Shown piece after piece: positions 35,402 through 40,326 of a stretch of DNA of 64,000 nt. The notes under the pieces are model-generated. The model was not told where the DNA came from. It did no database searches and was given only the letters and a program-made list of their open reading frames with translations. Made by a program: the position numbers and the translations under genes. This stretch comes from Hyphomicrobiales bacterium (GTDB lineage Bacteria; Pseudomonadota; Alphaproteobacteria; Rhizobiales; Rhizobiaceae), in assembly GCA_900472175.1 (NCBI GenBank), contig UCHD01000004.1, positions 588,726-652,725 on the forward strand. Direction: 5' to 3'. How positions within the stretch are numbered: the stretch's first letter is position 1; each line of letters starts with the position of its first letter.

Positions 35402-35431
35402 TGATCCAATTCTTGACCCTTCGCGTAATGA
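35402..35431 (+). promoter_or_regulatory. ECF sigma (RpoE/ECF11)-type promoter upstream of the chrR-like gene
   Basis: TGATCC (35402-35407), exactly 18 bases, then TAATGA (35426-35431), about 65 bases before the ATG at 35496. The -35 hexamer and spacing match what is known for the singlet-oxygen sigma factor of Rhodobacter. The same arrangement precedes the photolyase gene. A sigma-70 reading (TTGACC with a downstream ATAGTT) is also possible. The rest of the 331-base gap between cysK and this gene holds no supported gene. Confidence 0.65.
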
Positions 35432-35495
35432 GGAGATAGTTTCCGCAGCGCTCATGCGACAAACACTCCTGCGGCAAAACAGGTAAATCAAATCA

Positions 35496-36143
35496 ATGGC
35501 TGACGGTCAGCTGGATACAGTCGATGCCTTGATGGCACGCTACGCTGCGGGCATTTTACCGGAGCCGGCGCGCGTACTCGTCGAAGCGCATCTGGAGATG
35601 CAATCCGTCAATAGATCAAAGGTCACAGCTTACGAAACGGTTGTCGGTGATGTCCTGGAACGCATGGAACCGGTTTCTCTGACATCAAGAGACGAAGCGC
35701 TGAGAGCCATTTTTTCGGCAGCTCCTCTTACAACGCCAGACACGGCACCAGTTCCGCCAGGAAACCCGTTTTTTCCCAAAGCCATTCGCGATTTTGCCGG
35801 GATCGATGCCGCTGAAATCCCCTGGAAAAGAAAACTGCCGGGGTTCAAGGAATATAGCCTCGGGACAATCGACGGCTGCGATGTCAGCTTCTTCTGGTTG
35901 AAGCCGGGCCGGGTGATTCCAGCCCACACGCATGAAGGCTACGAGCTTGCGCTTGTTCTCGACGGCGCCTTCAACGATACGCGCGGACGCTTTGCCAAGG
36001 GGGACATATCCGTGGCGGACGAAAGCATCGACCACCGTCCCATCGCAGAAGCAAAATGTCCCTGCATCAGCTTTTCCGTCTCGCAGGCGCCGGTCAAACT
36101 GACCGGATCATGGAGACAACTGCTCGGTGACATGATCGGCTGA
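35496..36143 (+). CDS. ChrR-like anti-sigma/cupin protein with degenerate anti-sigma zinc site
   Basis: A 215-residue protein of the ChrR family. The N-terminal anti-sigma domain keeps the ARYAAGILPEPARVLVEAHLE layout with His32, but the C-x-x-C pair that normally follows is replaced (Gln36, Asn39) and the first His ligand is absent. The C-terminal cupin keeps all expected metal ligands: His144 and His146 (AHTHEGYE), Glu150, His180, plus the Cys188-x-Cys190 pair. In Rhodobacter ChrR binds and releases RpoE in response to singlet oxygen. No rpoE is adjacent here, so its partner must be elsewhere or it may have lost sigma binding. Confidence 0.85.
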   Translation: MADGQLDTVDALMARYAAGILPEPARVLVEAHLEMQSVNRSKVTAYETVVGDVLERMEPVSLTSRDEALRAIFSAAPLTTPDTAPVPPGNPFFPKAIRDFAGIDAAEIPWKRKLPGFKEYSLGTIDGCDVSFFWLKPGRVIPAHTHEGYELALVLDGAFNDTRGRFAKGDISVADESIDHRPIAEAKCPCISFSVSQAPVKLTGSWRQLLGDMIG

Positions 36144-36205
36144 TGGCTCCGCCGAACATTGGCCAGAATGCGGGAACAAACTGCATTTCAATGCGTATTG
36201 TTTGG

Positions 36206-36235
36206 TGATCCCGGTTTCCGGGGTCCGCGATTGCG
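36206..36235 (+). promoter_or_regulatory. Weak third candidate ECF promoter upstream of the SDR gene
   Basis: TGATCC followed by 18 bases ending in CGCG, as in the other two sites, but the -10 reads ATTGCG, not TAA. It lies 18-47 bases before the SDR start. Low confidence; the SDR could instead be read from the chrR-like transcript, 109 bases upstream. Confidence 0.3.
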
Positions 36236-36252
36236 CAGTGAAAGGAGCTCCG

Positions 36253-37095
36253 ATGACCGATTTTGTCGCACACCCCGAAATGGGTCTGGCCTGGGTCACA
36301 GGAGCAAGTTCCGGTATCGGCCGCGCTTTGGCGCTCCGGTTGGCCAGCAACGGGTTTAACGTCGCCGTCACCGCGCGCAATCACGAAAAACTCGTCAAAC
36401 TGCAGCATGAATCCCCCGGGCCCGGCAGGATCATCGTGCTCGACGGCGACGTGACCGATCCCCGGGATATGGAGCGAGTTCTGGCAGCGATCGAATACGA
36501 GCATGGATCCATGGTGCTCGCGATCCTCAATGCAGGTGTCTACGTGCCGGTCCATGGGGAAGACATGCACCGCGAGGATTTCGAAAGGACCTTTGCGGTC
36601 AACCTGCATGGCACCGTCAACTGCCTGTTGCCGGCAGTGCGCCATATGAAGGCGAGGGGGCACGGCCAGATCGCCATCGTCTCGTCCGCCACCGGATATG
36701 GCGGCCTGCCGACAAGTGCTGCCTATGGGGCAAGCAAGGCGGCGCTAATCAATATGGCGGAGAGCCTAAAATTCGACCTCGACAAAACCGGTATCCGCCT
36801 GCAGATCATCAATCCCGGCTTCGTCAAAACGGCGGCTACGGCAACGAACGAATTTCCGATGCCGGCCCTTGTCAGCGCCGATGTGGCGGCCGAACGCGTT
36901 GCAGAAGGCCTGCAACGCAGCGGTTTCGAAATCACCTTTCCAAGGCGCTTCACCTATGCCTTGAAACTGCTCAACCTCTTGCCTTACGGGCTGTATTTCT
37001 GGCTCGTCAACAAAGCAACCGGATGGAAAACGCGGCCACTGGCCAAAGCGGCCCATTCCGTCGAGGCGTTGAAGCGCAATCCCCAGGCCGTGTGA
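36253..37095 (+). CDS. Short-chain dehydrogenase/reductase
   Basis: A 280-residue classical-type SDR with an NAD(P) loop (VTGASSGIGRALA), NAG motif (ILNAGVY) and catalytic YGASK, followed by a hydrophobic C-terminal stretch (LLNLLPYGLYFWLVNKATG) that suggests membrane association or a lipid-like substrate. The start at 36253 has AAAGGAG upstream. It follows the chrR-like gene and converges with cfa. In Rhodobacter an SDR is among genes of the RpoE core regulon, as I recall, so a role in lipid damage response is plausible. Confidence 0.88.
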   Translation: MTDFVAHPEMGLAWVTGASSGIGRALALRLASNGFNVAVTARNHEKLVKLQHESPGPGRIIVLDGDVTDPRDMERVLAAIEYEHGSMVLAILNAGVYVPVHGEDMHREDFERTFAVNLHGTVNCLLPAVRHMKARGHGQIAIVSSATGYGGLPTSAAYGASKAALINMAESLKFDLDKTGIRLQIINPGFVKTAATATNEFPMPALVSADVAAERVAEGLQRSGFEITFPRRFTYALKLLNLLPYGLYFWLVNKATGWKTRPLAKAAHSVEALKRNPQAV

Positions 37096-37113
37096 CCATC
37101 ACCAGCGGCAGGC

Positions 37114-38367
37114 TTATTCATAGACGATCTGACGGACGTCGATATTCCTGGCGCGGAAACCGGCTTCGCAATAGAACAGGTAAAATTCCCAGAGGCGCTT
37201 GAAGCGGATATCAAAGCCCAGCGGTTCAACCTTGTCCCAGACGTTCCAGAAACGCTCGCGCCATTCGGCCAGCGTGCGGGCGTAATCCAGTCCGAAACCG
37301 AAATCGCCGCTGATCTTCAAACCCACCTTGCGGCCGAGGTCGATCAGATGTTGCGGGGTTGGCAGCATGCCGCCGGGAAAGACATATTTCTGGATGAAAT
37401 CCGGGTTGGCGCGATATTCCTGATAGGCTTCCGGCTTGATGGTGATGATCTGAAGCCCGGCCTTGCCACCCGGCTTCAGGCAGCGTTGCAACTGCGAAAA
37501 GTAGGCCGGCCAGTATTTTTCCCCGACGGCCTCGAACATCTCGATGGAAACGATCCGGTCGTAAAGCCCTGTCTCGTCGCGATAATCCTGGAACTTGATC
37601 TCGACCCTGTCGGACAGGCCTGCCTTTTTCATCCGCTCGTTGGCGAAGGCCAGCTGTTCGCGGCTGATCGTCAACCCAGTCACCTTGCAACCGATCTCGC
37701 TGGCGGCGTACTCGGCGAAACCGCCCCAACCACAACCAATCTCCAGCACATGATGGCCGGCCTTGATGCCCGCGGCATCCGCCAAAGCCTTGTACTTGGC
37801 GCGCTGGGCCGATTGCAGGTCATTGGCGCCCGTCGAATAGAGCGCCGAGGAATAGGTCATCGTCGGATCGAGCCATTGCTTGTAGAAGGCATTGCCGAGA
37901 TCGTAATGGGCGGAAATATTCTTCTTCGAACCGGATTTCGTATTGGCATTCATCCAGTGCCGGAATTTTTCCACCAGCCGCAGCACGCCGCGTGCACCGT
38001 TGGAGTAGTTGCGGCCGACATCGGTGTTGACGAGAAAGAGTTCCAGAAATGCGCCGACATCCGGGCTGTCCCAGTCACCATCCACATAGCTTTCGGCAAC
38101 GGCAATGGTACCGCCGGTCAGCGCCCGTTGTAGCAGGTTCCAATTGTGCAGAGTGACGGAGGCGACTGGCCCCTGCGCCTTGCCCTTGACGACAACGGTA
38201 CGGCTGTCCGGCAGGGTGAGCTTCAGACAACCGGCTTGGATATGCACAAGACCACGCAAAACCATCTGAGCCTTCGCGGGTAAACCTTTGACAAAGCGCG
38301 ATAAATTTTCAGAAGAAAGACGCTCTCCGTCTTTCGGATCACAATAACCGGTACCTGCTGTGCTCAT
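37114..38367 (-). CDS. cfa: Cyclopropane-fatty-acyl-phospholipid synthase
   Basis: A 417-residue S-adenosylmethionine enzyme that adds a methylene bridge to unsaturated phospholipid acyl chains. The SAM loop is VLEIGCGWGGFAEYA (207-221). The lipid-binding N-terminal domain, NISAHYDLGNAFYKQWLDPTMTYSSA and the C-terminal FYLFYCEAGF segments are typical. A good ribosome site (GAGGATC) lies upstream. It is the last gene after phr and the DUF1365 remnant, all on the minus strand. In Rhodobacter cfaA belongs to the RpoE regulon. Confidence 0.95.
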   Translation of the reverse strand: MSTAGTGYCDPKDGERLSSENLSRFVKGLPAKAQMVLRGLVHIQAGCLKLTLPDSRTVVVKGKAQGPVASVTLHNWNLLQRALTGGTIAVAESYVDGDWDSPDVGAFLELFLVNTDVGRNYSNGARGVLRLVEKFRHWMNANTKSGSKKNISAHYDLGNAFYKQWLDPTMTYSSALYSTGANDLQSAQRAKYKALADAAGIKAGHHVLEIGCGWGGFAEYAASEIGCKVTGLTISREQLAFANERMKKAGLSDRVEIKFQDYRDETGLYDRIVSIEMFEAVGEKYWPAYFSQLQRCLKPGGKAGLQIITIKPEAYQEYRANPDFIQKYVFPGGMLPTPQHLIDLGRKVGLKISGDFGFGLDYARTLAEWRERFWNVWDKVEPLGFDIRFKRLWEFYLFYCEAGFRARNIDVRQIVYE

Positions 38368-38385
38368 GCGACAGATCCTCAGAAA

Positions 38386-38670
38386 TCATTGCTCGTGACA
38401 CAAAGTAACCTTATTCCGCCGGACCACCAACCCACGATTCTTGAGAAAATCATGACGGGTTTTTCGGCCGTCCCGCCAGGGGCTGGCCAGTTCCGGTGCT
38501 CGCAGCCGCGGCATGTAGCGGACGCCTTTGAGCCAGAGCTTCAACGCCTGCCAGTGAATCCCTGCGACAATCTTGAGTGTAAGATGCGGAATACGCGCAA
38601 CAAGACGCAAAATCTTGCCTGTTTGCAACGGGACCTGAAGGCCGGAGAAGGTTGCCGGGAAAAGAATGAG
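38386..38670 (-). pseudogene. DUF1365 C-terminal remnant
   Basis: The last ~80 residues read ATFSGLQVPLQTGKILRLVA, then HLTLKIVAGIHWQALKLWLK, the typical end of DUF1365 proteins (normally ~250 residues). The N-terminal three quarters are missing, because the photolyase gene ends at 38693 directly upstream. The frame is open to a GTG inside phr (38739), while an ATG overlapping the phr stop (38703) is in a different frame. A deletion that removed most of the gene is the simplest explanation; a short functional peptide cannot be excluded. Confidence 0.7.
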
Positions 38671-38692
38671 GATCGTGGGAAGAAAGGGGCGG

Positions 38693-40150
38693 TCATGCTG
38701 CGTCCTTAATCTTGTTATAGGCAGCAAGCGCCCGGTCACGCGCCTTCGCGTGGTCCACCAGCGGTCTTGGGTAGTTGTCCCCCAGCCTCAGACCGGCGGT
38801 ATCCAGAATGCTCTGTGGAGCCTCGAATGGCCGGTGAACGAATTTTGCGGGCAAGTCCGCCAATTCCGGCACGAAAGTCTTGACGTAGATGCCGTCGGGA
38901 TCGAATTTTTCGCCCTGCAGGACGGGGTTGAAAACCCGGAAGAAAGGGGATGCATCGGCACCGCTGCCGGCCACCCACTGCCAGCTTGCCGCGTTGGAGG
39001 CCGGATCCGCATCGACCAGCGTGTCCCGGAACCATGCTTCACCCTGGCGCCAGTCAATCAGAAGGTCCTTGATCAGGAAGGATGCCACGATCATCCGGAC
39101 GCGGTTGTGCATCGTCCCATGCCGCCACAATTGCCGCATGCCGGCATCGACGATCGGATAGCCGGTTTGCCCCTTTGTCCAGCGCTTGAAGTCGTCGCCC
39201 GTTCCAGCCCAGACAAAGGCATCGTATTTCCGGTTGAGGTTTTCGGTTGGCAATTGCGGGTTGTGAAAGAGTAGGTGGTAGGAGAAATCGCGCCAGACAA
39301 GTTCCTTGCGAAAGGTGATCACGTCCTCGGCCGGAACATCCTTCAATTTACGGGTGGCGTGCCAAATGCGGGCAGGGGAGATTTCCCCCATGGCCAGATG
39401 TGGAGACAGCCTCGATGTGCCATCGGTTGCCGGAAAATCCCGCCTGACCTTGTAGCCGGAGAGATCATCCTCGACGAACGCGTCCAGCCGTTCGAGCGCC
39501 GCTGCCTCGCCGGGTGTCCAGATTTCGGAAAACGTCTGCGACCAGTCTGGCGCGGTCGGCAAAAGCGCCCACGAAGCCAAATCCTCGCTGTCAGGCCATT
39601 CGGCCGGAGAGGCCAGTACATCTGGCCGGTCAAGCGGCTGGTCCGGCTCACCGGACGCCTCCAGCGCGCGCCAGAACGGGGTATAGACGCGGTAGGGCGT
39701 TCCCGAGCCCGTCTTCAAGCGCGTCGGTTCGTGGAGAAGCTGTCCGGCAAAACTCTTGACGGTTATTTCTGTGGAGCCCAGCGCGTCTTTCAGCGGCCCA
39801 TCGATGGCAATGCCGTTCGGATCGTAACGGCGGTTCCAATGGATGCTTGTCGCGCCCGTTTCCGACATCAACTTTGTCAGCACGATACCCGGCTCGCCAC
39901 TGCGCAGGATGAGCCGGCTTGCCAGCGCGTCGAGTGCGCTATCCAAAGATGTCAGCGAATGGTGCAGCCACCAGGCCTGGGCTGCACCCAGCGGCCCGGT
40001 CCCGTGGTGCAAAGGCTCGCGAATATAGACGGGAATAATCGTGCGGCCGGTTTGGGCCGCAGCATGAAGCGCATGATTATCGTCCAGCCGCAGGTCCTTG
40101 CGAAACCAAACGATGATAGGGGCTTCGTGGGAAAGGTCGTTGTTTTTCAT
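38693..40150 (-). CDS. phrA: Deoxyribodipyrimidine photolyase
   Basis: A 485-residue class I CPD photolyase, repairing UV dimers with FADH- and an antenna chromophore. The N-terminal Rossmann domain (IVWFRKDLRLDDNHAL), the FAD-binding region with TSRLSPHLAMGEISP and WRDFSYHLL, and the signature WRHGTMHNRVRMIVASFLIKDL are present. It is the first gene of a unit phr - DUF1365 remnant - cfa. An ECF-type promoter lies 29-58 bases upstream. The pairing with cfa and a ChrR-like gene matches a light/singlet-oxygen response. Confidence 0.95.
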   Translation of the reverse strand: MKNNDLSHEAPIIVWFRKDLRLDDNHALHAAAQTGRTIIPVYIREPLHHGTGPLGAAQAWWLHHSLTSLDSALDALASRLILRSGEPGIVLTKLMSETGATSIHWNRRYDPNGIAIDGPLKDALGSTEITVKSFAGQLLHEPTRLKTGSGTPYRVYTPFWRALEASGEPDQPLDRPDVLASPAEWPDSEDLASWALLPTAPDWSQTFSEIWTPGEAAALERLDAFVEDDLSGYKVRRDFPATDGTSRLSPHLAMGEISPARIWHATRKLKDVPAEDVITFRKELVWRDFSYHLLFHNPQLPTENLNRKYDAFVWAGTGDDFKRWTKGQTGYPIVDAGMRQLWRHGTMHNRVRMIVASFLIKDLLIDWRQGEAWFRDTLVDADPASNAASWQWVAGSGADASPFFRVFNPVLQGEKFDPDGIYVKTFVPELADLPAKFVHRPFEAPQSILDTAGLRLGDNYPRPLVDHAKARDRALAAYNKIKDAA

Positions 40151-40178
40151 TTTCTTCCGTGCATCGTGTCTACGTCAC

Positions 40179-40208
40179 AATTTACGCAAATGTGGACAAC
40201 GCGGATCA
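40179..40208 (-). promoter_or_regulatory. ECF sigma (RpoE/ECF11)-type promoter upstream of phr
   Basis: On the minus strand TGATCC (40208-40203), exactly 18 bases ending in TTTGCG, then TAAATT (40184-40179). The start codon lies 28 bases further on. The same -35, spacing and spacer end (GCG before TAA) occur at 35402-35431, in front of the chrR-like gene. Confidence 0.7.
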
Positions 40209-40326
40209 AAGGTTTCGTTGAGAAAGCTTTTTTATTTCATCGTTTTGCGAGGGAATACCGCTAACAGAATTCAAACTGCCGTCGTCACACGAAGCGGCAG
40301 TTACAGCCATTCGAGGCCGGAAGAGT

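Follow-up and report, generated by a model that had tools for sequence, protein, structure and literature searches.

Here we report that the chrR gene in a stretch of 64,000 nucleotides from a Rhizobiaceae genome (the window) probably belongs to a split stress module of the ECF11 type, governed by a sigma factor of the extracytoplasmic function (ECF) class whose gene lies elsewhere in the genome. We judge it likely that this unlinked sigma factor, RpoE-A, is restrained by ChrR-A, an apparently zinc-free anti-sigma factor encoded in the window, and that the pair is wired for negative feedback only. The content of the regulon and its promoter are already known as those of the core ECF11 regulon; the variant described here is the split ChrR system that lacks the CxxC motif. 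A canonical rhizobial copy of RpoE-ChrR was considered and rejected, as chrR has no adjacent rpoE and its product lacks CxxC. The features of the window that enter the argument are the following.

35402..35427, plus strand: ECF11-type promoter of chrR and the short-chain dehydrogenase/reductase (SDR) gene; -35 TGATCC at 35402-35407, N16, -10 CGTA at 35424-35427
35496..36143, plus strand: chrR-A, encoding a cupin anti-sigma-like protein of 215 amino acids; no HxxxCxxC, cupin ligands H144, H146, E150 and H180 present
36253..37095, plus strand: SDR-family dehydrogenase
37114..38367, minus strand: cfa-like S-adenosylmethionine-dependent fatty-acyl methyltransferase, CMAS-family (family match)
38506..38691, minus strand: remnant of a DUF1365 (UfaO-family) protein, C-terminal part, profile positions 179-232 of 235
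38693..40150, minus strand: phr, DNA photolyase of the photolyase/cryptochrome family, 485 amino acids (family match)
40183..40208, minus strand: ECF11-type promoter of phr; -35 TGATCC at 40208-40203, N16, -10 CGTA at 40186-40183

The initial annotation of the window had placed TGATCC, 18 bases and TAA before both chrR and phr. Both sites are indeed present, each ending in GCG-TAA (35402-35428 on the plus strand and 40208-40182 on the minus strand). In this form they are weak evidence, because the pattern is not rare: TGATCC-N16-20-TAA has four matches in the window versus 1.42 expected, with at least four in 6 of 100 shuffles, and the genome-wide scan that the annotation had called for yields 52 matches to TGATCC-N17-19-TAA in 5.46 Mb versus 6 for the reversed control pattern. 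After comparison of 80 chrR loci, we dropped TAA as the -10 core in favor of CGTA. The conserved core is TGATCY-N16-CGTA; the base following CGTA is variable and TAA is dispensable. The ECF11-type character of the promoters was upheld, and the requirement for TAA was not. In its CGTA form the motif is scarce. TGATCC-N16-CGTA occurs in the window just at chrR and phr (0.09 expected; 1 of 100 shuffles gives two), and the same scan of the genome finds just eight sites, those of chrR and phr and six others, with none for the reversed control. The six remaining sites each overlap a mechanically called open reading frame (ORF), the one at L209 lying near the start of its ORF (L and G numbers are our labels for compared loci and genomes, G000 being the genome of the window). 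The exact pattern in G000 gives no support to a wide regulon. The motif of the window is identical to the Pseudomonas syringae ECF11 consensus, TGATCC-N16-CGTA, as given in PMC5507510.

Conservation among relatives points the same way. A scan of the named genome collection confirmed 118 relatives, from which 80 loci were retained. TGATCY-N16-CGTA stands upstream of chrR in all 80, three of them with the TGATCT variant, and in 29/29 of the loci L049-L077, 15 of which are records also among the 80. The retrieved DNA includes phr for 63 of the named loci, and in 58 of these the motif precedes it. Of 30 Rhizobiaceae genomes in which neither ChrR nor a close RpoE match was found, 11 bear a photolyase, and in none of these 11 does the motif precede phr. 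In three further families of the order, eight loci keep the cysK-chrR-SDR order with no rpoE within 1.5 kb, and six of their chrR genes have the motif. Where rpoE and chrR are linked in one operon, TGATCY-N16-CGTA precedes rpoE in 23 of 26 sampled cases; two have a 15-base spacer and one has no motif. The earlier assignment of chrR and phr to one regulon is supported by these counts together with the P. syringae match. The SDR gene, suggested as a further member, follows chrR directly in 80/80 loci, on the same strand and at most 400 bp downstream, and is probably cotranscribed with it.

There is very little chance, in our view, that the TGATCC-N16-CGTA sites are fortuitous or served by another sigma factor. 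The motif is short, and in phr promoters a GAAAC-N16/17-CGT element overlaps it, yet the motif is conserved across genera, is missing from the control phr promoters, recurs before the linked rpoE-chrR operons, and equals a consensus obtained by chromatin immunoprecipitation sequencing (PMC5507510, in part).

A sigma factor suited to these promoters appears to be encoded outside the window. The genome contains 15 Sigma70_r2 matches, of which the RpoE-like one lies at G000:C3:21281-21850. The closest solved relative of its product, RpoE-A, is Rhodobacter sphaeroides RpoE (149 bits, the next scoring 63.6). In the RpoE tree, where row L126 consists mostly of empty columns, RpoE-A clusters with the linked rpoE genes, two other ECFs of the genome falling outside this group (99/94), and the split-type RpoE proteins form a single branch (100/99). 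By similarity, RpoE-A is thus probably an ECF11-like sigma factor. The initial annotation had expected such a gene elsewhere in the genome and had counted the lack of one as refutation; as an ECF11-like rpoE is present, that objection does not arise.

The rpoE-A gene is monocistronic, the nearest genes in its own locus being on the opposite strand. Homologues of the divergent upstream neighbor occur in 30/30 rpoE loci and those of the convergent downstream neighbor in 27/30, with orientation taken from the loci listed; we take the neighboring genes to be IalB-like, DUF1232 and rlmN-like. No anti-sigma gene was seen adjoining split-type rpoE, and none of the 30 loci has TGATCY-N16-CGTA within 1.5 kb upstream of it. 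A conserved block, GGCARSAGTTTGAC, is situated about 80-140 bp before the split-type rpoE match in 25 of the 30 loci (L099-L128); it may be the rpoE promoter or a regulator site. Separately, another ECF gene at G000:C7:33008-33753 has beside it what may be a gene for a zinc anti-sigma factor, which matches TIGR02451 weakly, at 17 bits.

The separation of chrR from its presumed sigma gene is a property of a whole class of genomes. We searched 297 Rhizobiaceae genomes with both ChrR and RpoE. The weakest matches counted had 26% identity (E 7e-10) for chrR and 37% (E 2e-33) for rpoE; rows below these were excluded. With class limits that we set at no less than 43% identity for chrR and 50% for rpoE, the split type comprises 61 chrR and 61 rpoE genes, and 59 genomes have both (Fisher's exact test, p ~3e-57, a value inflated by the kinship of the genomes and hence no true probability). 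Not one of the 61 split-type chrR genes lies beside its sigma gene. By contrast, all 76 linked-type chrR genes, found in 75 genomes, are within 1.5 kb of an rpoE. Split pairs share a contig in six genomes, where they are 1.1-2.7 Mb apart, and are elsewhere on different contigs. Likewise, none of the 80 named chrR loci (13.7-20.7 kb) includes rpoE. The ChrR tree places the split type on one branch (100/100; 38 vs 26 rows), and a search for chrR alone detected this type in relatives of Rhizobium leguminosarum that include R. johnstonii 3841. Two genomes of the window's genus, G103 and G175, have an rpoE-chrR operon of the linked type (L096 and L097) in addition to a split pair. Their linked promoters read TGATCC-N15-CGTA rather than N16, and this difference in spacing could help to keep the two systems apart.

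Four genomes have just one partner of the split pair, and three of them are 81-88% complete. The other, G250, is rated 100% complete and has no RpoE match at E 1e-15. Its ChrR lacks residues ~7-60 and retains the promoter and the cupin; the anti-sigma domain has been lost in frame, MIHEQI running straight into the linker (a single case).

ChrR-A has the architecture of ChrR anti-sigma factors, an N-terminal helical anti-sigma domain followed by a C-terminal cupin (Cupin_7, 43.4 bits). Where ChrR of the zinc-binding anti-sigma (ZAS) type has HxxxCxxC, ChrR-A reads HLEMQSVN, and its anti-sigma domain has D7-H32-Q36-N39 in place of the HHCC zinc set. Because of this replacement, the domain probably works without zinc. 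The substitution is general: HxxxCxxC occurs in 0/117 rows of split-type ChrR (102 distinct sequences) and in 23 of the 26 sampled linked ChrRs. In place of the zinc ligands, split-type proteins have a polar set, with D or N at position 7, an invariant H32, K, Q or R at 36 and mostly N at 39. The cupin zinc ligands H144, H146, E150 and H180 are kept in 37/37. We do not class ChrR-A as a canonical ZAS ChrR, since it has neither the zinc motif nor the linkage and scores 121.4 bits with TIGR02451, for which the family cut-off is 124.5.

ChrR-A might no longer be an anti-sigma factor at all, being instead a stand-alone cupin sensor or enzyme and a mere member of the regulon, with RpoE-A controlled otherwise, through transcription or proteolysis. 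The zinc motif is missing from 102/102 distinct split-type sequences, and in R. sphaeroides ChrR the zinc of the anti-sigma domain is reportedly needed to inhibit sigma-E (PMC6852236). Moreover, rpoE-A stands alone behind its own conserved upstream block, and RpoE distances are followed equally well by the cupin and by the anti-sigma domain. We nevertheless regard this explanation as unlikely. The anti-sigma domain of ChrR-A stays conserved, with a mean majority frequency of 0.70 compared with 0.78 for the cupin, and has four helices in a structure model. It is also precisely the part that is missing in G250, the sole complete genome of the split class without RpoE-A, although this is one case. 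Finally, zinc-independent anti-sigma domains exist in RseA and RskA (PMC7406223, in part). A further arrangement, in which some other anti-sigma factor, also unlinked, holds RpoE-A and ChrR-A acts on the two of them indirectly, would be compatible with the fact that direct binding of ChrR-A to RpoE-A is a prediction from sequence. We consider it decidedly improbable, given that the genome holds just one full ChrR-family protein and that ChrR-A and RpoE-A are found together in so many genomes.

We therefore favor the split module, which would operate as follows. The unlinked rpoE-A would supply the ECF11-like sigma factor, and ChrR-A would probably keep it inactive. A photo-oxidative, peroxide or related signal, sensed via the cupin, would inactivate ChrR-A, and the released RpoE-A would transcribe chrR-SDR and phr-(ufaD-ufaO-)ufaM from TGATCC-N16-CGTA. 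Photolyase, a fatty-acyl methylase and the SDR would be made together with additional ChrR-A, which would end the response. Feedback would be negative only, because of the two regulatory genes only that of the anti-sigma factor has the promoter. Whether this represents a lineage-wide and apparently old rewiring of ECF11 in the order, involving separated genes, a polar zinc-independent anti-sigma domain, sensing by the cupin only and retention of the negative arm only, we hold to be an even question.

Several observations weigh against the split module as proposed. The TIGR02451 score of ChrR-A is below the family cut-off, and as R. sphaeroides ChrR needs its zinc, loss of the ligands could mean loss of sigma binding. 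Three of the 26 linked ChrRs are also without part or all of CxxC, so that cysteine loss and gene separation are not strictly tied. The motif is missing upstream of five of the 63 phr genes from named loci, of two of the eight chrR genes from other families, and of chrR in G080, one of 16 genomes scanned. The estimate of the regulon is based on exact matching; the exact sites number 2-12 in each of 16 other genomes, and among them those at chrR and phr were inspected. The co-occurrence counts are phylogenetically non-independent, and the ChrR and RpoE trees both come with long-branch warnings. Lastly, the mirror-tree signal, 0.61 for the anti-sigma domain and 0.59 for the cupin, is not domain-specific, and its permutations ignore the tree.

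The resemblance to RpoE-ChrR of R. sphaeroides, whose core regulon includes phr, cfa and an SDR (PMC6852236 and PMC5507510, both in part), extends to the sigma family, the two-domain ChrR, the cupin zinc ligands and the phr/cfa/SDR regulon. The Rhodobacter-like arrangement assumed by the initial annotation did not hold. R. sphaeroides has a single autoregulated rpoEchrR operon and an HHCC zinc domain, whereas here the genes are unlinked, rpoE has no such promoter (0/30) and ChrR has no zinc cysteines in its anti-sigma domain; unlike that of R. sphaeroides, the cassette of the window is also without UfaO and UfaD. The P. syringae pair PSPTO_1043/1042 shares the promoter consensus and has the phrB locus among its targets; its sigma and anti-sigma genes, in contrast to the split system, are adjacent and autoregulated and have many more binding sites (PMC5507510, in part). 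The linked operons of other Rhizobiaceae share the promoter type and differ in their invariable adjacency (76/76) and in the CxxC that most of them retain. We found no description of a split or zinc-free ChrR among the titles and abstract openings listed by searches of the open-access PubMed Central literature, an absence that proves little. The lineage offers a natural test of the role of anti-sigma-domain zinc in singlet-oxygen sensing, a question left open in PMC6852236, and makes two feedback designs of one regulon comparable. A light-damage response with a switch protein and its probable sigma partner far apart is, moreover, common to many relatives.

The initial annotation had joined phr and cfa in a photolyase-cfa unit. 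That description was not upheld as it stood: the unit is probably a decayed photolyase and furan-fatty-acid operon, and a piece of a DUF1365 gene, which the annotation had not noted, lies between the two genes. In the close relative L130, the cassette is whole: phr is followed by genes for an Amino_oxidase flavoprotein and a complete DUF1365 protein, then by cfa and by MFS_2 and SMR transporter genes. UfaM, UfaD and UfaO act in furan fatty acid synthesis, UfaO carrying DUF1365 (PMC7380195, in part), and the L130 flavoprotein, DUF1365 protein and cfa product would fit UfaD, UfaO and UfaM, respectively. The L130 cassette thus matches the furan pathway of R. sphaeroides and R. palustris; that of the window, where the three are not all present, has a UfaM-like gene and a UfaO remnant. 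Of the 80 named loci, 54 have a ufaD-like gene; among those without one, some are truncated or may carry ufaD elsewhere. About 1.9 kb, with ufaD and most of ufaO, is missing from both the window and its sister L129. No UfaD-like gene was found in the 64-kb window, to which the search for UfaD was confined, and the remnant is the sole DUF1365 match genome-wide, with no second UfaO. The furan-fatty-acid branch of this strain seems to be cut down to UfaM.

The window and the sister genome share 99.5% identity in cfa, 92.4% in phr and 91.6% in chrR. Because cfa has stayed this similar despite the loss of ufaD and most of ufaO, the gene probably remains in use. The genome has two other homologues of it, which makes a housekeeping cyclopropane synthase less likely; this copy is probably the UfaM of a furan-fatty-acid operon, a role with which the presence of the other two is consistent but which it does not prove. 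The MFS_2 and SMR genes that lie between cfa and the SDR in L130 (11584-13675) are missing from the window (37095-37114). In G003:C1 (L178), extra TGATCC-N16-CGTA sites occur within the cluster 59 bp upstream of the SDR and near the far end of the locus.

Further promoter-like elements accompany those described above. One more feature of the window belongs here.

40191..40216, minus strand: vestige of another ECF-type promoter of phr, overlapping the first; GAAAC at 40216-40212, N17, CACA at 40194-40191, where most relatives have CGTA

Since its -10 reads CACA, this second promoter has probably been lost in the window. Among relatives, where the phr-side promoters of L129-L208 were compared, GAAAC-N16/17-CGT[AC] overlaps the TGATCC promoter of phr at 50 of 58 sites and occurs at 0/80 chrR promoters, with 0.01 expected from shuffling; these 58 phr-side sites differ from the 58 counted above in including L147 and excluding L195. 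In L164 and L169, both halves of the GAAAC element are displaced by 2 bp with the 17-bp spacing preserved. L255, one of the 11 phr genes lacking the TGATCC motif, has GAAAC-N16-CGTA. On the chrR side, TTGAC is found inside the spacer of 64/80 promoters; our guess is that it is perhaps the -35 of a housekeeping promoter for basal anti-sigma factor. Finally, GGAAC-N16-CGTA is present between chrR and the SDR gene at 36173-36197 on the plus strand, and GGAAC-N15-18-CGT occupies this position in 28 of 81 loci. The element resembles the EcfG general-stress promoter, GGAAC-N16/17-CGTT.

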